From the NCBI RefSeq assembly GCF_932294415.1, contig NC_065535.1:92210862-92274861 (forward strand): a stretch of 64,000 nucleotides of DNA, read 5' to 3'. Every line of letters begins with the position of its first letter. Position 1 is the first letter of the stretch. Made by a program: the position numbers and the translations under genes. The stretch comes from Quercus robur (taxonomy: Eukaryota > Streptophyta > Magnoliopsida > Fagales > Fagaceae). Positions 4,832 to 61,350 of this stretch are shown in pieces. The notes under the pieces are model-generated. The model saw nothing but the letters and a program-made list of their open reading frames with translations. It was not told the origin of the DNA and did not search any database.

Positions 4832-7531
4832 ATGACTAGGAGCCTTCCTCCGATTCAGTTTGTTTTTGATAGTCATGGCCATTTGATTGGTGCCAAGGAT
4901 TCCCAAGTGGACTCCTATGGTGGATTCAGCAATATGGACGATGAGGCCCAGAATGTTTTCAAAAATTTCAATGATGGGGTTAGTTCCACAATGAAATGGG
5001 CTACAATAGCTTCTATTGGTAAGCTATTTGAAGTGTTTGAATCATCATGCATATATGTTCTGTTGTTGTTTACTGTTTCAGTTGTTGCGTCTAAGTCTTA
5101 ACCAAAAAAAGTTCGCAGTTTTATGTTTATATTTATTCAGTTTCAGTCTCTCAATGATGTTTCAGCTTTCAGTTTTGAAGTACTGTCAGTTCTAAAAATG
5201 TTAGTTGGCACTTAAATTGAAGTTACACAAGGAGGGAATCAAACCCTTCTCTGCTATCCTGAGATAGTATCATTGAAAGATGGAATACATGCATCTATGA
5301 CCTTGTATATGGTTGTTTTACATTGTAAATTTGCCTTAGTGTTCCAAATATCTACTGCTCATGGTGGGGTTTGCTATTAGAGAAGGCACACAAAACCCAC
5401 AGTCTAAAAACCATAATAGAGAGAATCTAAGAGCATAAGAGAGAAAGAGGGAGAGTTTTCTTCTGCCTTTTTCTTTTGCATCAACTACACAAATTACACC
5501 CCTTTATAACACACCCCCAAGTGATAGAGAGCATGTCCCTTTATATATGTTACATGGGCAGTTTATTAAATAAATAGGTCCTAACCAGTAATGGGCGACT
5601 TGGTTTGCCAAGTTCGACCAACTTCTAACAATCATAAATATGTTTTCCCCTAAAATATAGGATATTGCTAGCAAGTACTACCATGGTTTTGTAATACCAT
5701 ATGTTGTCGGGGTTTTAGCCTTTTAGTTTATCATACTTAACTTAATGTGCTCTTATGCTAAACCTAAGGTTGTTGTGGCAAGTGACAACAACACCCATAG
5801 GGAAAGAATTAAGAAAAACATTGTTTTACCTTAGAACTTATGTTTTGTGAACAAACAGAAAGCCAAACAATGATTGAAGAAGAAAGTGAGAGAACTAGAA
5901 ATGTGAGGTAGAAAGTAGAAACATATTTTTCTTCAATTATTTCTCAAGATGTGATTTGGCACTTGCTACATCATCAAATTCTGTTATAGTTAGAAGAGAC
6001 GGCTCATTAAAAAAAAAAAAAAAATACAAGGAGATAAGTATCAGAAAGTTAACTACAATGGAGCTCAATGTTTAAGGGTATACTGTAATTTTCCCTTCAT
6101 GAAAAAATACCATTACTTTTGGAAATGTTGTTACTTAGAAATTCTTACCCAAAATTAAGTTTTTCCTGAATTTGAGTGTACAAATTTGTATGGCATAATT
6201 GAATTATAATTCTCCTCCAATTTTCAGTTTCAGGTGTGGTGGTGATGGTTGCAATTGTAGCCATAGTATATGCCATTATTGATTGTTTGAGGAAGGCAGG
6301 GACTGCAATTCCAACTTATGCCAGGTTAGCCACTGCAGACACTGATAAAGCTTCAAATCCACATTCATCATCCCAAGACATCGAAAAAGAAGAAACACCA
6401 CTTTTCCCAGTACTTAGAGACTCACAAGTCGAGCATGCAACCATGGAGAGATTCCTCAGCAACATGGCAAGAGAAAAGCCCGTCAGGTTCTCACCTAAAC
6501 AACTTGCAGAATTCACAGAAAATTACTCCACCATATTGGGTTCAGGCGGTTTTGGTGTAGTCTTCAAAGGGCAATTCCCAAATGGAATGCAAGTGGCTGT
6601 CAAAGTGCTTAATGGTGAATTGAATAAGCGAGTTGAAGAGCAGTTTATGGCCGAAGTTAGCACCATGGGAAGAACCTACCATATCAACTTAGTTAGACTA
6701 TATGGTTTTTGCTTCGACCCCATGATGAGAGCACTTGTTTACGAGTGCATGGAAAATGGTAGCCTTGACAACTTCTTGTTCCGTGAGAACAGCCAAGAGA
6801 TGTTGGAATGGGAGAAGCTTTATGACATTGCAGTTGGAACTGCAAAAGGGATTGCTTATTTGCATGAGGAATGTCAACAAAGAATTATTCACTATGATAT
6901 AAAGCCAGGAAATGTACTTCTTGATAAAAATTTGAATCCAAAAGTTGCTGATTTTGGATTAGCAAAGCTTTGTAACAGAGGAAGTAGTCGCTTACTATTA
7001 ACAAATGGCAGAGGAACACCAGGATATGCTGCTCCTGAGCTCTGGAAGCCTTATCCTGTGACTCACAAGTGTGATGTTTACAGCTTCGGAATGCTGCTCT
7101 TTGAAATTGTGGGGAGGAGAAGAAATTTTGATGAGAATCAAACTGAGTCACGACAATGGCTTCCACGATGGACATGGGACATGTTTGACAATACTGAATT
7201 AGCAGTTATGATGTCACTTTGTGGGCTTGAAGAGAAGGACAAAGAAAAGGCAGAGAGGGTGATAATGGTGGCTCTGTGGTGTGTTCAGTATTCACCTGAT
7301 GACAGACCTCTAATGAGCACTGTGGTGAAGATGTTGGAGGGAAGCGTGGAAGTTACTCCACCACCTTTTCCTTTTGAGCACATGGTATCTCCTAACCCAA
7401 CTATGAACCTAGATAATGGAAGCAATGGGGGTTCGTATACTACATCAATATCATCATCAAGTGCAAACACTCTTGAGCAATCTAATTCCAAACCTGTGCA
7501 TAGAACTTTTGAGATTGAATTAGCTACTTAG
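4832..7531 (+). CDS. LRK10L-type receptor-like serine/threonine kinase (two exons)
   Basis: Exon 1 is 4832-5018 and exon 2 is 6228-7531. The intron runs from a strong GTAAGC donor to a pyrimidine-rich acceptor (TTTTCAG), phase 1, giving 496 residues. A TGA at 4793 closes the frame upstream, so ATG 4832 is the first start available. The joined exons create a hydrophobic segment (about 55-83), so this is a type I membrane kinase with a very short, cysteine-free ectodomain and no clear signal peptide. Kinase landmarks: glycine loop GSGGFG (167-172), catalytic lysine in VAVK (188), HYD loop (284-286), DFG (304-306), APE (331-333). The loop lacks the arginine of HRD, making it a non-RD kinase as usual in the LRK10L family. 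That family is tied to rust resistance and immune or ABA signalling in other plants; the role here is inferred. A longer upstream ectodomain exon cannot be excluded. Confidence 0.88.
5125..5697 (+). repeat. Direct repeat B inside LRK10L intron 1
   Basis: Partner of the repeat at 1206-1770, in the same orientation and about 3.9 kb apart. It lies entirely in intron 1, which suggests a tandem duplication of the locus followed by loss of the upstream kinase exon. A short SSR-like purine stretch (GAGAGAAAGAGGGAGAG) occurs in both copies. Confidence 0.8.
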
Positions 7532-8880: not shown

Positions 8881-9121
8881 ATTACAAGGAAATAAATAAT
8901 CAGATTCAAATGGCACAGTATGAATTTCTATAAAAACATAATGACAGTATCCTTGAGTTATGTACATAGACGAAAAATTAGTACACGGATCACACTCACA
9001 CACAAACGAATGCTCTCCAACCCACCTAAGTAGTGGCTAATTCAATCTCAAATTTCCTCATCACGGGAGTTGTGCCTACAAAGCTCATTTGAGAGGAATA
9101 TTCCGAATCAAGAGTGCTATT
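8881..9121 (-). pseudogene. LRK10L pseudogene, 3' end (part 1, right edge cut by gypsy insertion)
   Basis: Read on the minus strand, 9021-9121 encodes the last 30 or so residues of an LRK10L kinase (ending ..SSQMSFVGTTPVMRKFEIE plus a few residues and a stop), closely matching the tail of the gene at 33686. The lower part matches that gene's 3' UTR. The frame is cut at 9121 by the gypsy LTR and resumes at 19568. Only this tail survives; no kinase core is attached. Confidence 0.8.
9117..9121. repeat. Left target-site duplication of the gypsy element (CTATT)
   Basis: CTATT on the left against CTATC at 19568-19572 on the right. The LRK10L paralogues at this site read GCTATC, so the right copy is original and the left has one point change. 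Confidence 0.75.
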
Positions 9122-9636
9122 TGATGATGCTGAAAATATCACCAATAGGTCACACCGCACTCACGACTCAAAGCGAACCTGCACAACAAGAACAATCGAA
9201 AGAAAACCTTTAGAGAGCACCGGTGTAGTGCCGGCCAAACACTCTCCGAAGGTCAAGTTAGAATTCTTCTCACAACTCTAGGGTGCTAGAGAGGGTTAAT
9301 TATGCGTACCTTTATTCGCGAGGGTATTAGGGCTTTTATAGTAATGGAGAGTCGGCTTTTCCTTCTTGGTGTCCAAGTCTTTTCCATATGGGACTCTACT
9401 TCCAACAATCCCAAGCGTGATGGACAAGTATTTCCTTGTAGGGTGGATTTTTCACTAAGGCGGATCTTCTAGAATTCTTCTTTTATGCGAACATCCTGAT
9501 CTTCCTAGGGTTTCCTCGGATTCCAAACGTGTATACCAAATATTTTAAGTGACGCTAAGTCCTCGGCCCATGCTTAATATTGGCCCATGAGTCCGAACCC
9601 GTCAGGCCCAATGTTCCGCGATTTCTTACCACATCA
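9122..9636 (-). repeat. 3' LTR of the gypsy element (left copy)
   Basis: 515 bp, starting TGATGATG and ending CATCA on the plus strand. Its minus-strand TATA box (TATAAAA) is at 9334-9340. It also carries a CCGTC near its inner end, matching the motif enriched in the neighbouring antisense gene. Confidence 0.95.
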
Positions 9637-9653
9637 GTTGCCCCTTTCACCCT
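9637..9653 (-). promoter_or_regulatory. Polypurine tract of the gypsy element
   Basis: On the minus strand the 3' LTR is preceded by AGGGTGAAAGGGGCAAC, the purine-rich primer site for plus-strand DNA synthesis. Its position confirms the element's orientation. Confidence 0.7.
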
Positions 9654-9932
9654 ATGATCCGTCGAGTTCTTAAGTGGTCAGATCACTAGGGTGACGGTTA
9701 AATATAACTGGGCATGACGATCAAGGATTGCTAATGGTGACGGTTAAAAACTATGACGTTCCTAGATGGAACACGTTGACAGATGAAGATTCACGAAGTT
9801 GACGGCTCCTTACAGGGTACGATCCGTGGACGCGTGTTGCCAGGTTGTCACATTAATGAAGCTGGCTACGTGTCATTCTTGGATTGGATGGTGTATCGGA
9901 TCGAAGCGTCACTTCGTCTTCCGTGCATTTCT

Positions 9933-9943
9933 TATATATAAAG
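9933..9943 (+). promoter_or_regulatory. TATA box of the antisense gene
   Basis: TATATATAAAG, followed about 30 bp later by a pyrimidine-rich start region (CTCTCTTCCCTT). It sits about 300 bp inside the 3' LTR and points away from it. Upstream there are two copies of GGTGACGGTTAAA (about 9690 and 9735), which contain the motif reverse-complementary to CCGTC. A 5'-UTR intron with GTAAGT donor (10083) and TTGTAG acceptor (10219) lies between this box and the ATG. Confidence 0.65.
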
Positions 9944-10082
9944 CGTACCTCTCTTCCCTTATTTCCAATATTTTCAGCAAGAAATCGTTGTCAGAGCGGA
10001 GTCGTCAGCCTTGTCAGAGCATTCCGTTGAGAATTTATACCCGTCGGATATTTCATCCGTCAACTACTTTTCGCATTGTTTG

Positions 10083-10219
10083 GTAAGTGCTTCATTTTCG
10101 TTTTTCATCATCATCATCATTTTTTTTATGTTTCATTTTGTGTCTACATTTTTGTCAAACCTACACACCCGTCGAGAATTTTAGACCCGTCAGTCTTAGG
10201 TTTTATCGTCAATTTGTAG
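10083..10219 (+). other. 5'-UTR intron of the antisense gene
   Basis: Strong donor G|GTAAGTGC and acceptor ATTTGTAG|GAAATG, the latter three bases before the start codon. The T-rich body is typical of plant introns. Leader introns often raise expression; that role here is inferred. Confidence 0.6.
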
Positions 10220-10222
10220 GAA

Positions 10223-12372
10223 ATGTCTAGTGCGTCAAGTAACCAGTCAATGGTCCGTGACGGGACGGAATACGAGGAGGTATACCCGTCCGGTCATAAA
10301 GACCAAGAGAGTCCCGGCGAAGATAGGAGTCTATCTGCTTCTTCTTCATCCTCAACAGATGAGGATATGGAGATGGTTGAAGAAGAAGGCTCTTCTAGTG
10401 ACGACGGGGATCAAGCACTGGTACCCGTTGTTGGTGCTGGTGGACTTAGAGAGTTCATCATGCTACCAGAGTGGATGGTGCACAGATTCACATCCGTCAT
10501 CAAGGAGAGACACTTCAGTACTTTTAGGACAAACTTCCAAATTCCAGACAATATTTTCATCTGTCTACCAAATGTGTCGGAGAAGTGTTACTACGAAGGC
10601 GTAGAAGGCGTCGGAGTGTACGAGCAGATGCTGAAGGCAGGACTTCGGTTTCCGCTAAGTACACTTCATAGAGAACTTTTATATTACCTGGGATTGTCCG
10701 TCACCCAGATATCTCCAAATGCCTGGAGGGTCTTCATAGCGATGGAAATCCTCTATGGAGCAATGACGGGCAGACGTAGGAGGTTAACGGTGCGTGAATT
10801 CCTTCATTGCTACCGTCCAGATGAGATCGATAGATCAAGGGGGATGTACAGTTTTGCTAGTAGAAGCCCTTTGTTAAAGGTCATCTTTGAGACTCCCGAC
10901 TCAAATAGAGACTGAAAAAGTCGTTACTTTTTTCTAGAGGGTAACACGTGGATGAACCGTCCAGGGGAGACAGAGTACCTGCCTGTTGACACAACTTGGG
11001 GAGTTATACACCCTTCACGTATGTACTCGTCTAAATGTTATAATTCTTTCCTAACATTCTATTACAATTTCTATAACCGTCCATTTTTTTTGCAGGTAGA
11101 CGGCGTCCACAAGTTAGTGTTGAGGAATTTGGTTTCCTTGAAAAGATTTTCCAGAAGACTAAGCCGGAAGAAAGGACCTGGGCCAAGTTAGTGAATCCAA
11201 ACACAATACACTGGTATTGTGACGGTCCAGATTCTACCCGCGAGGCCATTATATACGACGAAAGAGTCCACAGACGTAAGTCCGTCAACTTTTACTTTTT
11301 TGAACTTAGCCTTCAACTTGAGGAAATATCTTCATCCGTCCTGTATTGCAGAAATGGACGACGTAAAGAGAAGGGCAATTATAAAATCGCTAGCCGTCGA
11401 GCAAAAGAAGACGGGCGAGGTTGTGGTTCCCAAGGGGCTGGGGTCGTCGGCGAAGAGGAAGCAGCTGCCCAAGTCTGACCGTCCACACAAGCAGCAGAAG
11501 GTTCCATTGGAACCCGTTGTAGGCTTGATGGCTAAGGGAGCTAAGACCGTTACCCCAGCAAAACATGGATCCGGCAAGGGCTTAATGCAGGCCCTGTCCG
11601 TCAGCCAGGAGAAGCCTCCTCCCCTTCTCCGTGACGACTCAAAGTTTGCATTGGAGAAACTTTCGTCGATAATTTCCACGGAGGATTATGAGGATCTGGG
11701 GAATCATTCGATGGAGGCAATGGGGGAGACGGGTCTGTTCGCCGTTGCACAGGTAACTCTTTTTATCCGTCAATATGTGTCCATCCACTCTTCTTAGCTT
11801 TCTGTTTAACACCCTTTTAACTTTGTTTATTTCAGTCCTTGGTTATGATGAAGGGCTTAATGGACCGCTGCCTAAACCGTGAGGCGGCTCTGGAATGTGT
11901 ACGGGCAAAAGCTGAGCAGACGAAGGAGGAGCTTGGTCAACTTCATAAGTGGAAGTCCACAATGGAGAAGAAGTTCGACCTGTCTGAGAAGACGAGGAAA
12001 GAGCTTGAACAGAGGACGGAGGAAGCTGGGAAGGCCTTGAAGGGTAAAGACGATGAGATAAAGGATTTGAGGAAAAAACTTCGTCAAGCCAAGGAGGATG
12101 CTGTCAGTGAGTATCGCGACTCTGAGGCCTTGTTGAAGGAGCTGGGGGGATCGTTCCTTCAAGGCTTCGACGATGCACTCCGTCAATTAAAAAAGGCCTA
12201 CCTTGATCTGGACGTGTCCATGATAACCGTCAGTGATCAAGATCAGACATCAGCTCTGCCCGTCGCCTCAGAAAATACGGACGACCTTTTTGGTGAAGAC
12301 GCTGTTCAGGGCGACGGAGAATCTGTCCCGTCGAAGGATGTCCAAGTTGCTGAGCCAAAGAAAGTAGATTAA
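10223..12372 (+). CDS. Antisense element gene: Transposase_28-like protein with coiled coil (interrupted by one nonsense codon)
   Basis: Four coding exons: 10223-11018, 11096-11275, 11352-11752 and 11836-12372. All introns have GT..AG ends and the phases agree throughout (1, 1, 0), giving 637 codons if codon 231 is read through. Codon 231 (10913-10915) is TGA where the family has a tryptophan (TGG) before ..KSRYFFLEG.., so this copy is truncated at 230 residues. Residues about 70-280 match the 'putative gypsy type transposon' family (Pfam Transposase_28): an acidic N-terminus, a PLSTLHRELLYYLG-type helix, an NAWRVF motif and the RYFFLEGNTW block. Next comes a lysine-rich stretch (KRKQLPKSDRPHKQQK, a plausible nuclear signal), and exon 4 encodes a long charged coiled coil. 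Function of the family is unknown. Transcription would oppose and converge on gag-pol. Extra antisense ORFs are known in Tat elements. Confidence 0.82.
10913..10915 (+). other. Nonsense codon in the antisense gene (TGA for expected TGG)
   Basis: The frame continues without further stops to the exon-1 donor at 11019, and the following residues still resemble the family, so this is a point mutation rather than a natural end. It is a G-to-A transition. Confidence 0.75.
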
Positions 12373-12539
12373 TCTTCATGTAATTTATTTTGAGAACAAT
12401 CCGTCCTCTTTTGGCTTATTAATTTATTTTCAAAACAATCCGTCCTCTTTTTTATTGTATTAAACACTTGCCTTCTGGGCTTTTTGTTGGCTTATTAATG
12501 TTTACTTTTTTATGCTTTCTATTGTTGTTTGGAACTTGT

Positions 12540-13610
12540 TTAAAAGTCCGTCCTCCTCCTCAAGGAGGGATTTTTAAGAAAAATATTCGTTTATCCGTTA
12601 TACTCCGTCCACATTGCAGACTTATTATTTTTAGTGTTGATTGATCCGTCCATTTGGATGATCCACTGTCCGGCTACGTGGATGGTCCGTCAACGTTTCA
12701 GCATCCCGTTATCTGTCCATTTTTGGACTTATAATTTTGTTTGCCGTTTTTGGTGATCCGTCCATTTTTTGGACAGATTTTCCATCAGCTTAGGGATCCG
12801 TCAATTTTGAGGGACGTTTTTATTAACTTAGTGATCCGTCCACAACATGGACTTGTAATTTTGTTCACCTCTTTGGTGATCCGTCTACTGTGTGGACAGT
12901 TTTATATCTTGTTAATGATCCGTCCACTTTGTGGACTGGTAATCATTTTCACTGTTTTGATGATTCGTCCACTTTGTGGAGAGTAAATTATAACACCGTT
13001 TAGGTGATCCGTCCACTTTGTGGATAGTTCTTTCACGCTGTTGGTGATCCGTTCACTATGTGGACTTGAGTTGAATTCGTCCATTTTGGACTTCCAATCG
13101 TCAACCTTGAGGATGGTCCGTCTGTTCGGACTATATTCGTCACCCCTGTGGGGAGATCCGTCCAACTTGCGGACTTATTTCGTCCGTCCCTTTTGGACTT
13201 TACGTCGTCATCCACGTAGGATGATCCTTCCATTTATGGTAGTGTTTTATGTCCGTCCACTTTGGACTGCATTTGTCACCTTTGTAGGGCGATCCGTCCA
13301 CTTTGTGGACTTACTTTTGTATGTGTCCCTGTGGGACTTCATGTGGTCATCCTCGTAGGATGATCCGTCCACCTTGTGGATTTTATTTTATTTCCGTCCA
13401 TTTTGTGGACTTCAAACGGCCATCCTTGTAGGATGATCCGTCCATTTTGAGTATTTTATTTTGCATCCGTCCATCTTGTGGACTTCAAGTGGGCATCCTT
13501 GTAGGATGATCGTCCATCTCGTGGATTTTAAGTGGTCATCCTTCTGGGTGATCCGTCCACCTTGTGGACTTTATTTTGTATCCGCCCATCTTGTGGGTAA
13601 TTGTAATAAC
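12540..13610. repeat. Array of short hairpins built on GATCCGTCCAC...GTGGAC between convergent genes
   Basis: About twenty degenerate copies of GATCCGTCCACTTTGTGGAC, each a small palindrome (GTCCAC/GTGGAC with a TTT or CTT loop), spaced 40-70 bp apart. From about 13190 a second hairpin, CATCCTTGTAGGATG, alternates with them, giving an 80-90 bp higher-order unit of three hairpins that repeats until 13590. The array fills the gap between the stop of the antisense gene (12372) and the stop of pol (13791). It is not a CRISPR array: units are imperfect, palindromic and interspersed, in a plant transposon. A role in termination, RNA folding or protein binding is possible. Confidence 0.85.
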
Positions 13611-13790
13611 ACATCCATGTAGAAAATCAAAATTGTATCTGATTATTATTCTTAATAGAAATGCGTAAAGGAAAAGTGCCTGCCCCCTTGGGCTTAAAAA
13701 GGCACGGCAAGATTGTATAAAAAAATAGCTAAAGAAAAACTAGTGATTAAAAAACTTAAGAAAAACTGGTTGCCGTTCGCCGTGTTATTA

Positions 13791-16700
13791 TTACTGGTAG
13801 TATTTCCTTAAATGCTCGGCATTCCATGGATGCGGCAGCTTCTCTCCGTCTGTTGTCTCCAGGTGGTAGGTTCCTTTCCTTTTCCATGACGTAACTCTAT
13901 AAGGTCCTTCCCAGTTGGGGCCGAGTTTTCCCTGTGTAGGGTCTCTAGTTGCACCCATGACCTTCCTGAGTACGAGGTCTCCTACTTGGAAGTCTCTATG
14001 TCGGACCCGGGAGTTGTACTGTTTGGCCATGCGATCCTGGTATCTAGCGATCCTTTGCTCCGCCGCCGACCTAACCTCATCTAACAGGTCTAGCTGTAGC
14101 CTCATAGTTTCGTCATTCCTGCTCTTGTCATGGTTGTGAACCTTGTAGCTTGTGAGCCCAACTTCTGCTGGGATGACCGCCTCGCTCCCGTACGTTAGTC
14201 GGAATGGCGTCTCTCCTGTTGGGGTCCTCGTCGTTGTTCTGTATGCCCATAGTATGCTCGGCAATTCTTCGGGCCATATGCTTTTTGCCCCCTTGAGCCG
14301 AGTCTTGATAATCTTTAGCAGGGATCGGTTCGTGACTTCAACCTGGCCATTAGCCTGAGGATGGGCGGGTGATGAGTAGTGGTTTTTTATTCCTAGTTGT
14401 GAGCAGAAATCCCGGAAGTGGCCGTTGTCGAACTGCCTCCCGTTATCTGAGACAAGGACTCTAGGGATACCAAACCTACATATGATGCACCGCCAGACAA
14501 AACTTCTAATGTTCTTTTCTATAATGGTGGCCAGGGTTTCCGCTTCTACCCATTTTGTGAAGTAGTCAATACCCACCACCAAGAACTTCAGCTGCCTTAC
14601 CGTCGTTGGGAAAGGTCCCATGATATCTAGTCCCCACTGAGCGAACGGCCATGGAGCCGTCATAGGGGTTAGCTCCTCAGCTGGCTGTCCAATAACATTG
14701 CTGAATCTCTGGCATTTGCCGCAGCTTTTAACGTAAGACTCGGCGTCCTTCTGCATGGTTGGCCAGTAATACCCAGCTCGTACCAGTTTGTGCACCAATG
14801 ACCTCGATCCAGAATGGTTCCCGCATATCCCTTCGTGTACTTCCCTCATTACGTAGCCTGCCTCTTCGGCACCCAGGCATCTCAGATATGGACGGGAAAA
14901 ACCTCTCTTGTACAGGATGTCTTTTATCAAGACGAACCTTGCCGCTTGGACCTTTAGCTTTCTTGCTGCCTCCTTCTCATCTGGCAGTAACCCGTCCTTC
15001 AAGTATGAAATTATCTGTGTAGTCCAGTTACTTTCGGAGCGTATCTCCTGCATGTTGCCGGGGTCTATTAGTGGAGAAAGTTGAACAAAAGAAAGTACAT
15101 TACCCAGTGTTATCATATGTTCTGCTGAAGCGGTTTTGGCTAGCCGATCGGCGAGTTCATTTTCTCCCCTGGGGATTTGGATGACCTTAGCTTCCAGCTC
15201 GTCGATTCTCGCCCTTACTTTATCAAGATATCTCTTCAACCTTTCACCCTTGCATTCATAATCTCCGTTTACTTGATTGGTCACGACTTGAGAGTTGCAG
15301 TAAACGACTACGCTTTCGGCTCCAGCGGCTTTGGCTAGGTCGAGTCCTGCCAATACCGCTTCGTATTCCGCTTCATTGTTGGTGGTGGGGAAGTCAAGAC
15401 GGACCATACATTCAATCTTGTCTCCTTCAGGTGACAGCAATACGATGCCGGCACCCCCGGCTCGCTGATTTGATGATCCGTCAGTATATATGCTCCACTG
15501 AGGGGACCCTTCTGCCCCCTTGTCTTCGTCACGAGTAAATTCTGCTATGAAGTCGGCTACGACCTGTCCTTTGATGGCTGCCCGCGGACGGTACTTAATG
15601 TCAAACTCACTTAATTCTATCGCCCACAGCATCAGTCGGCCTGCAGCTTCAGGATTACTTAATGCCCTTCGCAAGGGTTTGTCGGTCATTACATTCACGG
15701 TATGGGCTTGAAAGTAGGGCTTGAGCTTGCGAGCCGCCATGACTAATGCAAAAGCGAGTTTCTCCATAGGCGGGTATCTTTCCTCGGCACCGCGGAGTGC
15801 CCGGCTGGCGTAGTATACGGGCTTCTGTATCCTCTCCTCTTCTCTAATTAAGGCTGCGCTGACTACGACGGGGGAGACAGCCAAGTAGAGGAAGAGTTCT
15901 TCACCTTGTTGCGAGGGACTCAGTAGGGGTGGTGAAGATAGGTATGCTTTTAACTCATCAAATGCTCGCTGACACTCGTCCGTCCACTCGAAAGACTTTT
16001 TTAACGTGTGAAAAAGGGGCAAACACTTGTCCGTGGCTCTCGACACGAATCTATTCAACGCCGCTATCTTGCTGTTAAGACTTTGTACTTCTTTCACATT
16101 TCGCGGGGGGGCCATCTCTATTATGGCTCGGATCTTGTCCGGGTTAGCCTCAATCCCCCTCTGAGATACCATGAATCCTAGGAATTTTCCTACTGTTACG
16201 CCGAATGCGCACTTTTCCGGATTGAGTTTCATGTTATAGGATCGAAGCGTACCAAATGTTTCCCTAAGATCTTCCAGGTGGTCTTCCTCCTTTCGGCTCT
16301 TCACTAGCATGTCATCGACATAGACCTGGACATTCCTCCCGATTTGCTGCGCGAACATCTTGTTCATCAGTCTTTGGTATGTTGCCCCCGCGTTCTTTAG
16401 GCCGAATGGCATTACTTTGTAACAGAAGAGTCCTTGGCTGGTCACGAACGAAGTCTTCTCCTGATCGGTCTCGTGCATGCGGATTTGGTTATAACCCGAG
16501 AAAGCGTCCATGAAGCTTAGTAACTGGTGTTGAGCCGTCGAGTCTACTAGGACGTCGACCCTTGGAAGGGGATAGCTGTCTTTGGGACACGCTTTGTTAA
16601 GATCGGTGAAGTCCACGCACATCCACCACTTGCCGCTCGCTTTTTTCACCATTACTATATTCGCCAGCCAATCGGGATAGTAGACTTCCCTAATGAAGCT

Positions 16701-16865
16701 TGCCTCTTGGAGTTTGCGGACCTCTTTCGCTATTGCTTGGTCTCGTTCCGGGGCGAACACTCTCTTCTTCTGTCGGACGGGTGGAAAGGAGGGCAATACG
16801 TTCAACTTATGTACTATGACTGAGGGATCGATTCCTGGCATATCGTCATGACTCCAGGCGAACAC
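13791..16865 (-). CDS. Gypsy pol: reverse transcriptase, RNase H, second RNase H, integrase
   Basis: 1024 residues open on the minus strand, in the same frame as the protease. Reverse transcriptase occupies about 50-245 with YVDD at 182-185. A first RNase H-like region spans about 300-440. A second, archaeal-type RNase H (about 456-580) begins YTDGSSN, with acidic residues D462, E498 and D573, but the third aspartate of the YxDSQ motif is N524 (YCNSQ). Integrase: zinc finger H677, H684, C715, C718; catalytic D747, D807, E843 with 35 residues between the last two. The C-terminus ([19 protein letters not shown]) has no chromodomain. The frame is closed upstream by TAG at 16869. An R-to-W change in KWRMCVDF (here KWWMCVDF) is another likely decay lesion. 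Confidence 0.95.
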
Positions 16866-17450
16866 ATCCTAATTGCTCCTCAAGAAATTTATGAGCTTTT
16901 GACGGATTGAGGGCTTGGCAAGCGTTCCGATCTTGGTTGTTCTGTCCGGATTGGAACTGTCGAGAGTTATGTCCTCTAGCTTCTCTGTTGGTTCTGCTAC
17001 CGTTCAGTGTTCTTCTATGTTCAAGGCCCGGATTTGATCTTCCATCTCCATCATAGCTACGTAGCATTCCCGTGCGGCTACTTGACTTCCGCGTAGCTCT
17101 CCTACCCCATACTCCGTTGAAAACTTGATCATTAGGTGGTGAGTTGATGTTACCGCCTTCCACGAGTTGAGCGTAGGTCGTCCAAGGATAGCATTGTAGG
17201 CGGACGAGCAATCGACCACCAAGAATGTCACGTCCCTGGTGATTTGTTGGGGGTAATCTCCTACCGTCACTGATAACGTGACCGCGCCCAAAGGGAATAC
17301 CCGGCTCCCTCCGAAACCAACGAGCGGGGCGTTTGTCGGTATTAAGTGCTCCTTGTCAATCCTCATTTGCTGGAACGCCGGATAGTACAAGATATCGGCG
17401 GAGCTGCCGTTGTCGACCAACACCCGGTGCATGTTGCAGTCTCCTACCTA
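16866..17450 (-). pseudogene. Gypsy protease and linker, interrupted by three in-frame stops
   Basis: Minus-strand frame shared with pol. The aspartic protease has the plant-gypsy active site VDNGSSADIL and the downstream AYNAILGRPTLN motif. The frame is broken by TAG at 17448-17450 just before the protease, TGA at 17004-17006 after it, and TAG at 16869-16871 just before the pol open stretch. Sequence between the stops remains family-like, so these are point mutations. The protease would cut the gag-pol polyprotein in an intact relative. Confidence 0.85.
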
Positions 17451-17469
17451 CATGCTGACAACGAAGGCA

Positions 17470-18993
17470 TCATCGTGTGGATGGTGTAGGCGCTGTGCAT
17501 CCTCTTCTGAGAACCCGATAATGGGGCCTTCCCTCCTTGCTATCTTTGGGACGGTGCCCGTCAACTGGACATTCTGTACCATCCGGAGATATGTTTGCCG
17601 AGCCTTTTTTGATGACCCGGCCGCAGCTGTTCCTCCGATTATCATCCTTATATCCCCTAATGGGGGTCTTGGTCGCTCGTTTTCTCGGCGGAGGTGTTGT
17701 TCTTGCGGGGGTTGATCCGTTCTCTCCTTGCGGGGCTTCAATTTGCTGCTTCAAGTCGTAGCAATCGGCTGTGTCGTGACCATGGTCACGGTGGAAGCGG
17801 CAATATTTGTCTCTGGATCGCTTGTTGGGATCACTCTTCAGCTTTCCCGGAAACATCAGGGCCCCTTCGTCCTTAATCTGCATTAGGACTTGGTCTATCG
17901 GAGCGGTTAACGGGGTGAAACTTGTGAACCTCCCGCCCATGGGTTTTGGACGTCTCTCCTCCCTTCGGTCTCCCGTCCTTCCTTTCTTCCGCCCTTGGTC
18001 CTGTTGGGGGTCTTCTTGTCTGTCTCTTTTCTTGGGTCTATCTTCTCGGGCTAATAGCGCGTCTTCAGCGTTCATATATTTGGTGGCCCTGTAAAGCACC
18101 TCTGACATGGTCTTTGGGTCGTTTTTGTATAGGGAGAACAAAAACTTACCCCCCTTCAGCCCATTCGTGAATGCTGCTACCAGTATCTTGTCGTCGGCTT
18201 CGTCGATCGAGAGCGCTTCTTTGTTGAAGCGTGATATGTAGGCCCTTAACGTCTCCTCCTCTCGCTGCTTGATATTCATTAAACAAGTCGTGGACTTCTT
18301 ATACCGATGTCCTCCAATGAAGTGCGTAGTAAATTGAGCGCTTAGCTCCTTAAAGGTGCTGATGGAGTTGGGTGCTAGCCGGCTGAACCAAATCCTTGCT
18401 GCGCCCTTTAGGGTTGTAGGGAAGGCCCTGCACATAATCGCGTCTGCCACTCCCTGAAGGTGCATCAGGGTCTTGAAGGTCTCTAGGTGATCTAGAGGGT
18501 CCTTGACTCCGTCATAACTATCCATATTTGGCATGCGGAACTTACTCGGCAGGGGGAAGGAGTTGACGGTTGTCGTAAATGGCGAGTCAGTCCGGTTGAC
18601 AAGGTCGTCAAGATCACTGGACACTCGTCCCTTGAGAGCGTTCATCATTACTTCCATCTGTTCCTTCATCGCTTGCATCTCCGCGATGATGGGTGGTGGA
18701 GCCGTATCTGTTAGGGAAGGGACGCTAGTGTCCCGTCGCACTGGTCTGCTCGGGGCGTTGCTCTCCTGTGGTCCTTCATGATTTCTCCTTTCAGCACTGG
18801 TCCCTTCTTGATCTGCTCCTTGGTTATTGACCGCCGCATTTTTTTGGTTCAGCTGCTCTTCTAGGTCGTGGTTTTGTTTGGTGAGGCGCTCCACGGCTGT
18901 GGCGAGCGTCCTGACCTGTCTCTCAAGAGCAGTCGTAGGGGCCTCTTCTTCTTGAACATCGTTAGTGGTTGCCATTGAGCGAGTGAGTACCAT
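17470..18993 (-). CDS. Gypsy gag (capsid and nucleocapsid), 3' end out of frame
   Basis: Starts at ATG 18993 shortly after the 5' LTR and primer site. A coiled coil lies near residues 20-50 (LERQVRTLATAVERL), the Retrotrans_gag capsid domain near 150-300 (AFPTTLKGAARIWFSRL..), then a basic region and the zinc-binding-like motif YCRFHRDHGHDTADC. After ..DLKQQIEA (about 17745) the open frame stops resembling gag: the family-like sequence (PLGDIRMIIGG..) continues in the protease/pol frame. A small deletion near 17740 best explains the shift; programmed frameshifting is less likely because expected residues are missing. Residues past about 415 are therefore spurious. Confidence 0.9.
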   Translation of the reverse strand: MVLTRSMATTNDVQEEEAPTTALERQVRTLATAVERLTKQNHDLEEQLNQKNAAVNNQGADQEGTSAERRNHEGPQESNAPSRPVRRDTSVPSLTDTAPPPIIAEMQAMKEQMEVMMNALKGRVSSDLDDLVNRTDSPFTTTVNSFPLPSKFRMPNMDSYDGVKDPLDHLETFKTLMHLQGVADAIMCRAFPTTLKGAARIWFSRLAPNSISTFKELSAQFTTHFIGGHRYKKSTTCLMNIKQREEETLRAYISRFNKEALSIDEADDKILVAAFTNGLKGGKFLFSLYKNDPKTMSEVLYRATKYMNAEDALLAREDRPKKRDRQEDPQQDQGRKKGRTGDRREERRPKPMGGRFTSFTPLTAPIDQVLMQIKDEGALMFPGKLKSDPNKRSRDKYCRFHRDHGHDTADCYDLKQQIEAPQGENGSTPARTTPPPRKRATKTPIRGYKDDNRRNSCGRVIKKGSANISPDGTECPVDGHRPKDSKEGRPHYRVLRRGCTAPTPSTR

Positions 18994-19035
18994 GTAACTC
19001 TTTTGTCTAGGAAGCGATAATGTGCTACGTCATTC

Positions 19036-19052
19036 CCACAGACGGCGCCAAC
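19036..19052 (-). promoter_or_regulatory. Primer binding site of the gypsy element
   Basis: On the minus strand the 5' LTR is followed at once by GTTGGCGCCGTCTGTGGG. The TGGCGCCGT part matches the 3' end of plant tRNA-Asp as used by Tat/Athila-type elements. The same 16 or so bases occur after a 140-bp LTR at 38744. Confidence 0.75.
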
Positions 19053-19567
19053 TGATGATGCCGAAAATATCACCAATAGGTCACACCGCACTCACGACTC
19101 AAAGCGAACCTGCACAACAAGAACAATCGAAAGAAAACCTTTAGAGAGCAAAGGTGTGGTGCCGGCCAAATACTCTCCAAAGGTCAAGTTAGAATTCTTC
19201 TCACAACTCTAGGGTGCTAGAGAGGGTTAATTATGCGTACCTTTATTCGCGAGGGTATTAGGGCTTTTATAGTAGTGGAGAGTCGGCTTTTCCTTCTTGG
19301 TGTCCAAGTCTTTTCCATATGGGACTCTACTTCCAACAATCCCAAGCGTGATGGACAAGTATTTCCTTGTAGGGTGGATTTTTCACTAAGGCGGATCTTC
19401 TAGAATTCTTCTTTTATGCGAACATCCTAATCTTCCTAGGGTTTCCTCGGATTCCAAACGTGTATACCAAATATTTTAAGTGACGCTAAGTCCTCGACCC
19501 ATGCTTAATATTGGCCCATGAGTCCGAACCCGTCAGGCCCAATGTTCCGCGATTTCTTACCCCATCA
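19053..19567 (-). repeat. 5' LTR of the gypsy element (right copy)
   Basis: 515 bp, the same length as the left LTR and about 98% identical by eye. TATA box on the minus strand (TATAAAA) at 19265-19271. Seven of about ten differences from the left LTR are transitions. Confidence 0.95.
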
Positions 19568-19625
19568 CTATCAGTATTTGTAGGATGGGAAGGTGCATTT
19601 GTGCAAGGAGTAACAATCAACATGT
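19568..19625 (-). pseudogene. LRK10L pseudogene, part 2 (other side of the gypsy insertion)
   Basis: Minus-strand translation gives ..TPCTNAPSHPTNTD.., collinear with the region just before the C-terminal tail of the LRK10L copies at 33.7 and 43.3 kb. It starts with the target duplication CTATC (19568-19572). Homology ends near 19625, so the rest of the gene was lost before or after the insertion. Confidence 0.75.
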
Positions 19626-33685: not shown

Positions 33686-35053
33686 CTAAATAGAGGCTAT
33701 TTCAATCTCATATTTCCTCATCACGGGAGTAGCGCCTACAAAGCTCATTTGAGAGGAGTATTCTGAATTAAAAGTGCTATCAGTCTGTGTTGGATGGGAA
33801 TTTGCATTATCCCAAGGATTAGCAACCAACAAGTGGTGGAATGGGTTTAAAGGTGTAGGAATCTCTACCGCTCCTTCCAACATCTTTACCACAACACTCA
33901 TCAGAGGTCTTGATTCAGGCCTATACTGAACACACCAGAAAGCTACCTTCATCATTCTCTCTGCTGTCTCTCTATGTTCCTCCTCTATCCCACAAACTAT
34001 GCTCAACTCTCCCGGTTCTCCATGTTCGAACTTTTTCCAAACTAACATTGGGAACCACTCTTGACTCTCTGGAAGACTACCATCGAGGTTCTTTCTCTTC
34101 CCTATGATTTCAAATAATAGCATCCCAAAGCTATAAACATCACACTTTTGGGTTATAGGATATGGCATCCACATTTCTGGTGCAGCATAACCAGGTGTCC
34201 CCCTTCCTCCTGTCATGGTGATATGTGTATTTTCCCTGTTAGATAGCTTTGCCAAACCGAAATCAGCTACCTTAGGCAAGAAGTTTGCATCCAAAAGAAT
34301 ATTTTCTGGTTTAATATCATAATGGATTATTCGTTGTTGACATTCTTCATGCAAGTAAGCAATCCCTTTAGCTGTCCCAACTGCAATCTCATGAAGCTTT
34401 CCAAATCCTAAGGTCTTGTTTTCACGAAACAAGTACTTGTCAAGCGAGCCGTTTCCCATGTACTCATAAACAAGTGCTCTCAGGTTCTTCTCAAAACAGA
34501 AACCATAAAGACGTACCAGATTAAAGTGATGAACCCTTCCTATTGTACTCACTTCTGCCTTGAATTGATCCTCAATTCTCTTATCAGAATTCCCATATAG
34601 AACCTTCACTGCCACTACAGATCCGTTACTAAAGATTCCCTTATAGACTGATCCAAATCCTCCTGAACCCAAAAAATTAGTGAAGTTGTCTGTTGCAATT
34701 CTGAGCTGCTGAGAGGTAAATTTGATTGGCTTCTCTCTTTCCATATCGTAGAGAAATTTATCCATGGTGAGTGTCATAAATCGTGAGTCCGGTGAGTCCG
34801 GATTGACATTGCTGCTATTCCTTTTAGAAAATCTTTGGCATACCATAACCACAATAATAATCTTTATAACAATGACTACTGCAGAAATGTAAAAATTTTA
34901 ACTCAATAAGAACCTCACAGCTTTTCAGAATTATTGGTACTAACTAATAATAATCAAAAAGTAATGAGAACACAAAGCTGGAAAAGAAACAAATAATAAA
35001 GATGGATTTAAAATCTTACCCAAGCCCACAAGAATAGCAGCTGCTTCGGACAT
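33686..35053 (-). CDS. LRK10L-type receptor-like kinase, minus strand (two exons)
   Basis: Exon 1 is 35020-35053 (MSEAAAILVGL) and exon 2 is 33686-34878; the 141-bp intron has a GTAAGA donor and CTGCAG acceptor, phase 1, giving 408 residues. Joining the exons creates a membrane segment (about 7-26) almost at the N-terminus, so the protein has practically no ectodomain. Kinase motifs: GSGGFG (82-87), VAVK lysine (103), HYD (197-199, non-RD), DFG (217-219), GYAAPE. The frame is intact to the stop. The conserved tail ..TPVMRKYEIEIAS is shared with the fragments at 9.1 and 43.3 kb. It may signal through a partner receptor or act as a short isoform; that is inference. Confidence 0.85.
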
Positions 35054-37349: not shown

Positions 37350-37539
37350 TGTAACGACCCAAGGAAAAGCGCTAGCCACATCTGCGCTAGCCACATCTGC
37401 GCTATACCTCAAAAGGACTAGTCACAATTGAGACTCCTTGTAGTTGTTAATAAAGCCCAGTTCAACTCAGTAAATACCCGATGTGGGACTCATTACACAC
37501 CCATACACATCACACAATCAATCAAATTGGGGCATCACA
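37350..37539 (-). repeat. TRIM LTR, inverted copy
   Basis: Reverse complement of the LTRs at 37720, 37995 and 38270. It is 190 bp long because the 15-bp piece GCTAGCCACATCTGC is doubled. It adjoins a direct partial copy (37540-37619), forming a palindromic junction. Confidence 0.75.
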
Positions 37540-38448
37540 ACTACAAGGAGTCTCAATTGTGACTAGTCCTTTTGAGGTATAGCGCAGATGTGGCTAGCGC
37601 TTTTCCTTGGGTCGTTACATATGGTATCAGAGCCGGCCCAGTAATCCCATATGGGCTCAAAGACACTACCCCACAAAGTATGCCCTAACGAGGACGTTAG
37701 GGATTTAAGTGGGGGAAATTGTGATACCCCAATTTGATTAATTGTGTGATGTGTGTGGGTGTGTAATGAGTCCCACATCGGGTATTTACTGAGTTGAACT
37801 GGGTTTTATTAACAACTACAAAGAGCCTCAATTGTGACTAGTCCTTTTGAGGTATAGCGCAGATGTGGCTAGCACTTTTCCTTGGGTCGTTACATATAGT
37901 ATCAGAGCCGGCTCAGTAATCCCATGTGGGCTCCAAGACACTACCCCACAAAGTGGGCCCTAACGAGGACGTTAGGGATTTAAGTGGGGGAAATTGTGAT
38001 ACCCCAATTTGATTGATTGTGTGATGTGTGTGGGTGTGTAATGAGTCTCACATCGGGTATTTACTGAGTTGAACTGGGCTTTATTAACAACTATAAGGAG
38101 CCTCAATTGTGACTAGTCCTTTTGAGGTATAGCGCAGATGTGGCTAGCGCTTTTCCTTGGGTCGTTACATATGATATCAGAGCCGGCCCGGTAACCCCGT
38201 GTGGGCTCAGAGACACTACCTCACAAAGTGGGCCCTAACGAGGACGTTAGGGATTTAAGTGGGGGAGATTGTGATGCCCCAATTTGATTGATTGATTATG
38301 TGATGTGTGTGGGTGTGTGATGAGTCCCACATCGGGTATTTACTGGGTTGAACTGGGCTTTATTAACAACTACAAGGAGCCTCAATTGTGACTAGTCCTT
38401 TTGAGGTATAGCGCAGATGTGGCTAGCCCTTTTCCTTAGGTCGTTACA
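37540..38448 (+). mobile_element. Tandem TRIM array, 275-bp period
   Basis: A partial LTR (37540-37619) is followed by three units. Internal domains are 37620-37719, 37895-37994 and 38170-38269, each exactly 100 bp. LTRs are 37720-37894, 37995-38169 (175 bp each) and 38270-38448 (179 bp). LTRs start TGTGATACCCCAATTTGATT and end GGTCGTTACA. Each internal domain starts TAT(G/A)GTATCAGAGCC (tRNA-Met-type primer site, sometimes mutated) and ends in the purine tract GTGGGGGAAAT. No coding capacity. Sharing of LTRs between units points to unequal recombination between LTRs. Confidence 0.88.
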
Positions 38449-38449
38449 T

Positions 38450-38702
38450 CGCACGTAAAAAAGGCCTAAACAACATCATTTGTAGAGTGTGGGTTTGAAA
38501 GGCTAGGCCTTGGTCACTGAACGGTGGTTAGTCGTGGTATTCGTACAGAGTTAAACCGTGTTCGCTCGAGGAGTCTTTCTCCTTAAGGCGGTCTGGGAGG
38601 CTCTGTACGAACACCACGACTAACCACCGTCCGATGACCAAGACCTAACCTTTCAAAACCACGCTCTACAAATGATGTTGTTTGGGCATTTTTTACGTGC
38701 GA
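38450..38702. repeat. Near-perfect palindrome with arms of about 100 bp
   Basis: The left arm (38450-38550, GCACGTAAAAAAGGCCTAAA..) is the reverse complement of the right arm (about 38602-38702, ..GGGCATTTTTTACGTGC) with few mismatches, around a loop of about 50 bp. The left arm is an inverted, truncated copy of the TRIM element that follows. Confidence 0.85.
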
Positions 38703-39077
38703 ACCCAATATCATTTTGGGTTGTTACAAATTGAGTCCTTACAATTGGCGCCGTCTGTGGGAAAGGCTTGTGTGTTGGCACAGGCGATGGGTTGAGACAA
38801 TCCCCCCATCATTTCCAACAGCCGGTTGTAGTGTCCTAGCATAAAGTTCCACAAGGGGCTGGGAAAAAAGGCCAAGAACCAGAGCCTCCCAGACCGCCTC
38901 AAGGAGAAAGACTCCTCGAGCGAACACGGTTTAACTCTGTACAAACACCACGACTAACCACCGTCCGGTGACCAAAGCCTAGCCTTTTAAACCCACGCTC
39001 TACAAATGATGTTGTTTGAGCCTTTTTTACGTGCGAACCCAATATCATTTTGGGTCGTTACAAATTGAGTCCTTACA
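38604..39077 (+). mobile_element. Small TRIM with 140-bp LTRs and a Tat-type primer site
   Basis: LTRs 38604-38743 and 38938-39077, both 140 bp, start TGTAC and end CCTTACA. Directly after the first LTR stands ATTGGCGCCGTCTGTGGG, practically the primer site of the gypsy element at 19036-19052. The internal region is about 194 bp and has no coding sequence. The target duplication cannot be read because the left side is an inverted partial copy. Confidence 0.75.
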
Positions 39078-40395: not shown

Positions 40396-43141
40396 GGTAA
40401 TAATAATAAACAAAAAGTAATGAGAAAATAAAGCTGGGAAAGAAACAAATAATAAAGATGGATTTAGAATCTTACTCAAGGTCACAACAACAGCAACTGT
40501 TGCTGTTGTTGTATCTACAGGCCCTCCATTGCTTGCAGTACTGGACATTATTCCGGAAGTGAAATACAAACACTTAAAACACATGAAAGAGATGAACTTC
40601 TAAGAAAAAAAATGGTGAATACATGGTATGTACAACATCAAGTTTACAACAAAAGAGAGAACATCATATCCTGATTTCTACAAAACTTCCAAAATGAGAG
40701 CCGTGTTTTGACCAATAAGTCTTATTCCCATGCATTAATCTTTTTTTCTTTACTATGAATATACTTGAAAGTTGAAACTATGTGGGGTTTGCTTAATGAT
40801 ATGATAAAATGACAAGCCTGCCTGCCGGCCTGGCCATAATATGAATATATAACTCAGAGGATTATGACATTCTCAAAAGAATAATCCAACCAAGGGCCAT
40901 GGTATGCACCACTAATATTGAATTTTCTAGGACATCGTATGCAACGGGGTTTGAAGAAGCAGACATAACTTGCCCTCTTTCAGGAAATAGCAGAAATCCT
41001 ATAGATTTTAAATGTAAACGAATGTGACTAATGATTATAAAATGAAAGGGAAATCATCCAATTTAGTGATAAAATAATGTGGAATGTATGGTGAAACAAA
41101 ATATTCTGAATCTACATAGTGCTTGAATACAAGGAACATGGTGGGTTCCAAACTTCCAATTAGTTGTAAAGTCTCTCGTCATACCATGGGTTCCAGTTGT
41201 AAATTTTCTTATTGTTAAATAAAATAGGTGTGTTCAAATTCCGTCTTGATTTTAAACTTCTCAACAATTATTATTATAAGTCGTCAATGCTTCATTAAAA
41301 GAATCACTGTCTTGATCTCATATTGTTTCTGGATGTCAGTCTTGACAGGGAACAAAGGCATATCCGTCCATAGGATAGGATCAATACAATTCGTCACTGT
41401 CAGGATTTCAACTTTGGCCTTAACATCACAGCATCATTCGTCCAAGGTCTCATCTCTGTGTTATTAGTTAGCAATTAAGTCTCTGCCACTTCTTTATGTT
41501 ATTCACCTAGTACAAGCCAACAGATAGTAATTTCCCCAGCTTAATTTTGTAGACCTAGCATTTCTCTTATTTCTTTCAATGTTATGTAGTTTGTCTCACT
41601 TATTAAACACTTTTTGAGTATGAAGCCAATTGCAATGAGCTATTCTACAAGCAAAACAATTTTCACAAAATTTTTCACAATAGTTACATTAGCAGGTTCT
41701 TATTGGTTCTCATCTGGACCTACAACTAACATTACTTTATCATCTATCATTAACAACTTGCCACCTCAACAGTTTTCACTTGTGATTTGGAATGGGTTTG
41801 CTATTCAAAAGTGACACTTTCTGCCTATCTGCTTTTGTTTTGAAGTCAAGAAGTGCTATAGTTCTCTTAGTTGAAATTTCTAGAACTATAAGGGAGTCCT
41901 TAAATTTGAAAACTTAAAAACTAAAACTAAAGTTTGGAGCTTGGTCTCTGTAAATCCAAAATTTAAAGCATTATTTGCTTTAATTTGAGCTTTCAATTAA
42001 AACTCTATATTGCACAAACTTTACTGCTAAAGCTCTACTTGCTACAGTGAACACTTTGTCTACTTGTCGGCACTGCACTCCGCTTTTGAGAAGATAATGT
42101 GACTGGTTTCTTAAACAAGTCTATAATCATAAACATCATTCATTTATATCCAACCAAAATTAGGCGATTCCATATAGTTTTATTGTCTTTTGCCCACCCT
42201 GCTCTCCGCACTTTTTGGAATCAAGAGAAACATTCTGAACAACCAATTACATTTACCGCTGCCTATATTGGTCAACCAGCTCAATTATAGCATGGCTACA
42301 TGCTTGAAAGCATCTTCCACATCAGAAGTTTGGCTCGAAGGGAAAAAAATGAAATGAGATTACATGCCTCATGGACACATCCAAGTTCAGTTAGCTGCTG
42401 CACTAGGAGAGAATCACATTAACCAGATCCCAGATGTTTTTAAGATCCTTTACGAATTCAATGCACTTTGCTATTCCATACATAGGTATATGGATATAGT
42501 ATACTCAACAGGAAAGTCTGCAGATACTTCCACTTCCAACAAATTCTGCAATACAAAAACATTTCCAAGTTCAAGAACCTCCAATAAACATTTCCAGTAA
42601 AACAGAAACTAAAATAAAATATTAAGTTACCATCCAACAAGGATTTTACACACTGTACTTTGCTTGATATATCTTTAGCTTTTGCATCCCTTTTTCCCTG
42701 AAGTATTGAAATTCAAAATGTTTTACAAGGTAATAGAATAAAAGGAATTGAAAATAGAAGAAATTGCAATAAAGACCATTTAAGTGAAATATTATCATGT
42801 TATTTAGGTTTACCTATCAAAAAAAAATCATGTTATTTAGGTTATACATTTTCCAATGCAGCTTGAAAGTTCACATGCATGATTTCAACAAGAAAACTGG
42901 TTGTTTCTTTGATACTAGCATAATTGCTCTTAAAAAAGTGGAGGAACGCGTGTCACCATCTATATTGAATCTGAGTTATGTTTTTTATCTGACCAGCTCA
43001 ATGGAGATCAGAAAGTGTGTTAGAAATATGGATGAATTTTTATTACAGAAAAAAATTAGCATTGCAGGGCAATTTCTTTTTCTATTGTAAACTTATACAC
43101 AAAGCTAGTGGGAACCAAGGACCTTGCGCTCCCCACTCTTA
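40396..43141. repeat. Segmental duplication, copy A
   Basis: Collinear with about 44490-48029: LRK10L leader and promoter block, then shared intergenic pieces (CATCATTCGTCCAAGGTCTC, CAGTTAGCTGCTGCACTAGG, CTGACCAGCTCAATGG) in the same order. Copy A ends at 43141 in ..CCACTCTTAC, where the pseudogene's 3' flank begins. Copy B carries extra insertions at about 45541-46850. Confidence 0.75.
40476..40548 (-). pseudogene. Orphan first exon of an LRK10L gene
   Basis: ATG at 40548 opens MSSTASNGGPVDTTTATVAV.., ending at a good GTAAGA donor in phase 1, as in the sister genes. The leader (ACATTATTCCGGAAGTGAAATAC) and intron match those of 33.7 and 43.1 kb. The kinase exon is missing: a Helitron terminus lies 81 bp downstream in the intron. 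It could splice to a distant exon only by skipping the TRIM cluster, which seems unlikely. Confidence 0.75.

Positions 43142-59640: not shown

Positions 59641-61350
<1,710 letters not shown>

Follow-up and report, generated by a model that had tools for sequence, protein, structure and literature searches.

A Retand-type LTR retrotransposon in the genome of Quercus robur carries, on the strand opposite gag-pol, a gene split by four introns. Substitution patterns among its copies argue for strong purifying selection acting on the antisense protein, and the surrounding DNA is dense in a short word, YCGTC, which we regard as a candidate site for a protein acting on element DNA. The reading we put forward, a little short of even confidence, is that of a spliced Retand accessory gene with a TATA promoter, whose nuclear protein binds the element's own YCGTC word and either counteracts silencing of the element or activates it. 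The window analyzed here is a stretch of 64,000 nt of the assembly GCF_932294415.1 (NC_065535.1, positions 92,210,862-92,274,861) from a genome of 785.7 Mb.

The whole element occupies positions 9122-19567 of the window. The antisense gene sits on the plus strand, between pol and the 3' LTR, and had correctly been called as lying opposite gag-pol in the original prediction, gag and pol both being on the minus strand. The element comprises the following parts:

9122..9636, minus strand: 3' LTR, 98.06% identical to 19053-19567 over 515 nt
9637..9655, minus strand: polypurine-tract-like stretch adjoining the 3' LTR, read from sequence, its role assigned by analogy
12373..13790, plus strand: 3' non-coding region separating the antisense stop from the end of pol, a degenerate array
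13791..16868, minus strand: pol (RT, two RNase H domains, integrase), from ORF and Pfam
17470..19029, minus strand: gag (Retrotrans_gag, E 2.3e-17)
19053..19567, minus strand: 5' LTR, pair of 9122-9636

The two LTRs (515 nt each) differ by 7 transitions and 3 transversions (K2P 0.0197) and are bordered by TSD-like flanks, CTATT at 9117-9121 and CTATC at 19568-19572, with 4/5 bases equal. A 169-aa frame between gag and pol had no match in the Pfam scan. Within the 3' non-coding region, array units hold CCGTC together with palindromic arms, and tandem rows with periods of 20-139 are found at 12828-13573. The two RNase H domains in pol presumably fit the wider Tat clade. The LTR (515 bp), internal (9416 bp) and pol-3'LTR (4154 bp, 9637-13790) lengths all fall inside the Retand ranges given in PMC11963269, which for the pol-3'LTR stretch go from 2,933 to 6,566 bp. 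An antisense Transposase_28 (TRP28) gene between pol and the 3' LTR is a Retand feature, and it is present here. Taken on this anatomy and on the antisense gene, the element is most likely a Retand-type Ty3/gypsy (non-chromovirus).

The antisense gene of the window copy is organized as follows:

9933..9941, plus strand: TATA box, TATATATAA, promoter of the antisense gene, beside the 3' LTR
10083..10219, plus strand: leader (5' UTR) intron, GT..AG
10223..11018, plus strand: coding exon 1, with the Transposase_28 domain, interrupted by a TGA at 10913-10915
10619..10732, plus strand: Transposase_28 (PF04195) match, residues 133-170, E 4.8e-5, 23.9 bits
11019..11095, plus strand: intron, phase 1, GT..AG
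11096..11275, plus strand: coding exon 2, with the lowest dN/dS of all segments
11276..11351, plus strand: intron, phase 1, GT..AG
11352..11752, plus strand: coding exon 3, with basic stretches read by eye and a possible nuclear localisation signal
11753..11835, plus strand: intron, phase 0, GT..AG
11836..12372, plus strand: coding exon 4, with the stop at 12370-12372 and a probable coiled coil

The coding exons (796+180+401+537 nt) join in a single frame of 637 codons plus the stop, and GC content is 29-38% in introns and 46-54% in exons. The four coding exons had been predicted with fully consistent phases. They do join in one frame, but the TGA at 10913-10915 is in frame and had been overlooked; because codon 231 is thus a stop, the window copy of the gene is broken.

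The proposed resemblance of the protein to the Transposase_28 family holds for the family of copies and is weak in the window copy alone, whose 23.9 bits lie under the Pfam curated cut-off for PF04195 (26.2 bits). When exon-1 domains were taken from the Quercus robur genome, 38/39 matched PF04195 at E <= 0.1. Transposase_28 and one stray match were all that a Pfam scan of antisense domains returned. No significant fold match was obtained for the Transposase_28 domain, winged-helix DNA-binding folds included, and the domain model itself is too poor to support a claim on its fold. Exon 4 gave weak Pfam matches to assorted families (E 0.02 to 0.87), several of which we take to be coiled-coil proteins, and probably encodes a coiled coil.

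To collect relatives, we searched the genome with the DNA of the antisense gene, scoring 40 of 797 first-look candidates. The best 30 of the 41 matches listed, window included, form family A, with identities of 77-100% along almost the entire gene. The start ATG is present in 30/30 copies and the TATA[TA]A of the promoter also in 30/30, compared to 24/1521 other 46-nt stretches. Donor GT is found in 30, 30, 29, and 30 of the 30 copies for the leader, second, third, and fourth intron respectively, and acceptor AG in 29/30 at each of the four. Hence the TATA box and the four GT..AG introns that had been predicted from the window alone are conserved features, and the conservation of splice sites, TATA and ATG across copies also lends support, at the sequence level, to the view of the gene as an independent transcription unit. 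At least one in-frame stop interrupts the joined frame in 27/30 copies, that of the window included. Many stops are confined to single copies while some recur: codon 231, for example, is a stop in 6/30 (TAG in 5, TGA in 1). Distinct indels are divisible by three in 7/25 cases in exons and in 11/70 in non-coding sequence, with no clear frame-keeping signal, as expected from copies that decay after insertion.

The original prediction had pointed to dN/dS among family members as informative. Over the 435 pairs of family A, mean dN/dS falls from 0.283 in the closest sixth to 0.102 in the most distant sixth, and a regression gives dN = 0.081 dS + 0.031. Differences in the 150 most distant pairs amount to 0.122, 0.100, and 0.367 at codon positions 1, 2, and 3, to 0.024 at splice dinucleotides, and in non-coding sequence to 0.354 (introns), 0.341 (leader), and 0.353 (promoter). 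For the 212 pairs whose non-coding DNA diverges by more than 0.30, the difference at fourfold sites is 0.361. These figures suggest that the drift of introns approximates that of synonymous sites, whereas the protein and its splice sites are held. By segment, dN/dS is lowest in exon 2, at 0.052 over the 150 most distant pairs, and is 0.084 in the exon-1 domain, 0.095 in exon 3, and 0.121 in exon 4; in the first 75 codons it reaches 0.379, partly because dS is low there (0.318).

More distant relatives were recovered with a PF04195 search of the genome, in which 150 of 4149 candidates were scored, all of them above the cut-off. By nucleotide similarity, the best 30 loci group into family B (22), family C (7), and one further locus, L013. 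Four longer loci of families B and C match the window protein at 25-33%. In family B, donors are GT in 22, 21, 22, and 22 of 22 copies (leader, 2, 3, 4) and acceptors AG in 21, 19, 20, and 21 of 22. The intron phases, 1, 1, and 0, are the same in family A and in one B copy. Since the introns of family B sit at the same places, the four-intron structure is older than the split between A and B. In one family C copy, for which introns 2-4 were checked, all three also have GT..AG borders.

The DNA around the gene is rich in YCGTC. Between pol and the 3' LTR (9637-13790), CCGTC occurs 43 times, versus 3.5 expected from dinucleotides, and in the 3' non-coding region YCGTC is found 29 times on both strands, versus 4.3 expected. 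To compare regions and families, we computed z-scores for CCGTC plus TCGTC counted on both strands, using 200 dinucleotide shuffles. In family A these are 6.1 for the promoter, 10.5 for the gene, 12.5 for the 3' region (12373..13790), and 2.4 for pol. Two family B copies gave 3.9 and 6.0 (promoter), 8.2 and 8.4 (gene), 11.1 and 11.3 (3' region), and 6.2 and 7.5 (pol), and two family C copies 9.3 and 7.2 (gene), 9.7 and 15.6 (3' region), and 10.6 and 8.1 (pol). Controls were mostly close to zero: 0.9 and 0.6 for host DNA of the window (the long stretch with 30 shuffles), 3.0 (L061, 1-3000), -0.8, -1.5, and -0.1 for flanks, and 0.1, -1.0, and -1.4 for three copia stretches. Family C pol carries the word at the density of the antisense gene, which does not sit easily with our reading.

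The word also takes a family-specific form. In 30/30 family A copies the pentamer with the strongest enrichment is CCGTC, and TCGTC is the commoner form in families B and C. YCGTC in either form ranks first in 30/30 A copies, 22/22 B copies, 3/7 C copies, and also in L013; it is within the top three in 7/7 of family C, where the remaining four copies have CGTCC first, part of TCGTCC. Among control loci it ranks first in 1/22 and within the top three in 2/22. Hexamer counts (CCGTCC 702 and CCGTCA 592 in A, TCGTCA 234 in B, TCGTCC 115 in C) give the forms CCGTC[CA], TCGTCA, and TCGTCC for A, B, and C respectively. The density of NCGTCN is 16.8, 11.4, and 12.4 per kb in A, B, and C, compared to 1.3 in host DNA of the window. 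Genome-wide, close-range triplets of CCGTC, in any sequence, number 4751 + 4612, versus 835 + 833 for the reversed word CTGCC; for CCTGC there are 591 + 586 triplet clusters, and for its reverse CGTCC, a pentamer overlapping the motif, 4020 + 3853. With host, flank, and copia DNA as controls, YCGTC might mark a clade wider than the TRP28 carriers.

The distribution of the word within elements is not homogeneous. Family A introns hold 216 CCGTC and one GACGG, and the 3' non-coding region of the window element 22 and 0; such one-strandedness is odd for a duplex-DNA site. In one B copy, the 381 nt of introns contain two word matches. Each LTR of the window element has a single CCGTC, and this sits poorly with an anti-silencing role, LTRs being by analogy the drivers of gag-pol.

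Enrichment of a word in coding DNA could simply reflect codon usage. We compared observed counts with synonymous-codon shuffles. Family A exons hold 22 CCGTC/GACGG vs 6.7 (0/2000 shuffles as high), and the exons of a B copy 26 YCGTC vs 12.5 (0/2000), so codon usage does not explain the word in the antisense gene. In pol the results vary among families. CCGTC/GACGG in family A is above shuffles in pol (12 vs 5.4, 1/2000) and near them in gag (6 vs 4.9, 709/2000), and for YCGTC no excess beyond codon usage was seen in family A pol (19 vs 16.4, 234/1000) or gag (11 vs 10.1, 431/1000). For YCGTC, the counts are 15 vs 10.9 (38/1000) and 13 vs 9.7 (63/1000) in B pol, and 35 vs 13.2 (0/1000) in C pol. 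Neither does the word arise from CpG content alone, because YCGTC accounts for 13-19% of the CpG contexts of the three families versus 3.1% in the host. In non-coding DNA of family A the word is conserved in place at 51%, other CG pentamers at 31%, and the rest at 17% (212/435 pairs). Under a stricter ranking CCGTC comes 8th of 155 pentamers (p = 0.03 vs other CG pentamers), and we consider in-place conservation as supportive of the word, not decisive.

From these data we propose the following course of events. The antisense gene would be transcribed from a TATA promoter of its own, next to the 3' LTR, and then spliced. We infer that introns can persist in an element copied through RNA because their splice sites belong to the strand opposite the genomic RNA, so that copying of the gag-pol RNA leaves them in place. 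The protein may enter the nucleus through its basic segment, as suggested by the reported nuclear location of GENE23 of Grande (PMC7264820). There, the Transposase_28 domain would bind the family's own candidate word, and the coiled coil would link bound copies of the protein. By analogy with VANC, binding at many sites of the element could shield it and its close relatives from silencing, or activate it.

Other explanations have to be weighed against this self-directed protein. The accessory protein might be real and act elsewhere -for instance in cDNA nuclear import or integration-, YCGTC being instead the target of a host factor that promotes element expression, such as a TGACG-type bZIP. 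The site of these factors matches CGTCA, and the CGTCA of family B is indeed the reverse complement of TGACG; besides, selection on a protein leaves its binding target unspecified, and pre-integration or retroviral-accessory roles have been proposed in a review (PMC7264820). But the letters of the word differ by family, and in family A it is concentrated over the antisense gene and 3' region, not in the LTRs, and we consider this alternative rather unlikely. We find it more improbable still that the word has nothing to do with the protein, having arisen as tandem repeats grew or serving as part of an RNA structure in the 3' region. The degenerate 3' array of family A folds strongly as RNA whichever strand is taken (z -8.6 and -9.8, 20 shuffles each), and this, together with the one-strand bias in introns and 3' region, makes an RNA role of the word possible in A. 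Yet exons and promoter carry the word at a similar density, on both strands and above codon shuffles, one B array folds at z -1.6 only (8/100 shuffles being as good), and two C copies have it in both orientations in their 3' regions.

The antisense RNA itself could also be the effector, pairing with gag-pol RNA and regulating it, with coding as a secondary role. It overlaps the 3' part of the genomic RNA, and regulation of this kind has been proposed (PMC7264820). We nevertheless favor a function of the protein over antisense-RNA control, because dN/dS is close to 0.10 in distant pairs, whereas the divergence of introns, leader, and promoter is comparable to that of fourfold sites; conserved splice sites likewise speak for selection on a spliced protein product, and we judge the RNA reading to be quite improbable. 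Finally, the exons could be chance ORFs or a dead relic, functionless in every copy. The stops in 27/30 copies and exon indels lacking a clear multiple-of-three excess would fit a relic, but selection and intron conservation across lineages contradict it, and many of the stops are copy-specific -although some recur-, as expected for post-insertion decay. We give this last explanation hardly any credit.

Genes of this kind have precedents. Extra antisense ORFs in Tat elements had been mentioned in the original prediction, rightly: Retand Transposase_28 ORFs are published (PMC11963269). That study found antisense TRP28 ORFs in all but two of 63 Retand clusters, the two exceptions being from Helianthus, predicted TRP28 to bind DNA, and stated its function to be unknown (Vicient 2025, PMC11963269). 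The gene in the window resembles them in position, antisense orientation, Transposase_28 domain, and tandem arrays near pol. Those ORFs were listed by ORF Finder; the four-intron gene, the dN/dS estimates, and the family-specific word are what we add. The term "intron" is absent from the main text of PMC11963269, and "splic" occurs there in the reference list alone. Another relative is gene23 of the maize element Grande (Gomez-Orte 2013), also antisense in the 3' region with its own promoter upstream, whose product is reported to be nuclear (PMC7264820, PMC11963269), while for the protein described here a nuclear location is inferred. As for HBZ of HTLV-type viruses, named in PMC11963269, it is likewise antisense and a regulator that acts in the nucleus; the HBZ-type antisense promoter is inside the 3' LTR (PMC7264820), whereas here it is outside.

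VANDALs are DNA transposons, and it is in one of them that the closest functional analogy is found. VANC binds a short motif that recurs across VANDAL21, in its non-coding DNA as well as in introns and tandem repeats; the motifs differ between related families, and VANC and motif coevolve with tandem repeats (PMC5735166). The likeness consists of an element-encoded protein under selection and a short motif of family-specific form that is enriched in non-coding DNA and arrays of the element itself; unlike in VANDAL21, the word here is dense in exons as well. By analogy, the antisense system may therefore work like VANC, and we do not class it as a VANC member. The same analogy was raised in sunflower for extra ORFs of LTR elements (Tork, Athila, and a Tekay ORF), along with the idea that such ORFs may influence the methylation of their own elements (PMC12844716), in the available text of which neither TRP28 nor a family-specific word is named.

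A review had earlier called for attention to spliced antisense transcripts (PMC7264820). In the open-access PMC literature we did not find the conserved four-intron structure, the selection estimate, or the family-specific YCGTC, although splicing of gene23 may be in print (Gomez-Orte 2013). Because of their intron structure, such genes would be caught by ORF-based surveys only as fragments. A broader and more doubtful proposal is that of self-recognition in Retand elements, in which the TRP28 protein binds the family-specific YCGTC and shields its family, as a second, independent VANC-like invention with coevolution of protein and word. A candidate word that is specific to each family offers a direct test: whether each TRP28 protein binds the word of its own family. 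If true, sequence-specific anti-silencing would extend beyond VANDAL-type DNA transposons to a widespread lineage of plant LTR elements.

Synonymous transversions are nearly absent from the first 50 codons of the antisense coding frame (10223-10372): among distant copies of the gene they occur at 0.012 per fourfold site, compared to 0.166 over all codons, and because of this scarcity the stretch may overlap an element acting at the nucleotide level. Further along the same exon, at the codon equivalent to 10913-10915, six of the 30 aligned genomic copies carry a stop, which comes in two forms. The recurrence of this stop at equivalent positions perhaps marks a hot spot of decay, or else a readthrough site.

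Besides the element, the window contains the following features:

6203-7531, 33686-34897 and 43139-44610: three genes or gene fragments with DNA-level similarity to one another, which we take to encode receptor-like kinases
37384-39036: direct repeats of 275 nt that have inverted arms of 155-157 nt, outside the element
59641-61350, minus strand: a long frame whose product presumably resembles ADAGIO/ZEITLUPE-type F-box/kelch proteins

Within the degenerate array lying 3' of the antisense gene, palindromic units (GTCCAC..GTGGAC) adjoin the CCGTC word at 12590-13600, and this region folds far more strongly than its shuffles on both strands (20 shuffles per strand). Across the whole source genome, counting all locations, we found 9,363 clusters of three CCGTC, 5.6 times the count for the reversed word, CTGCC.
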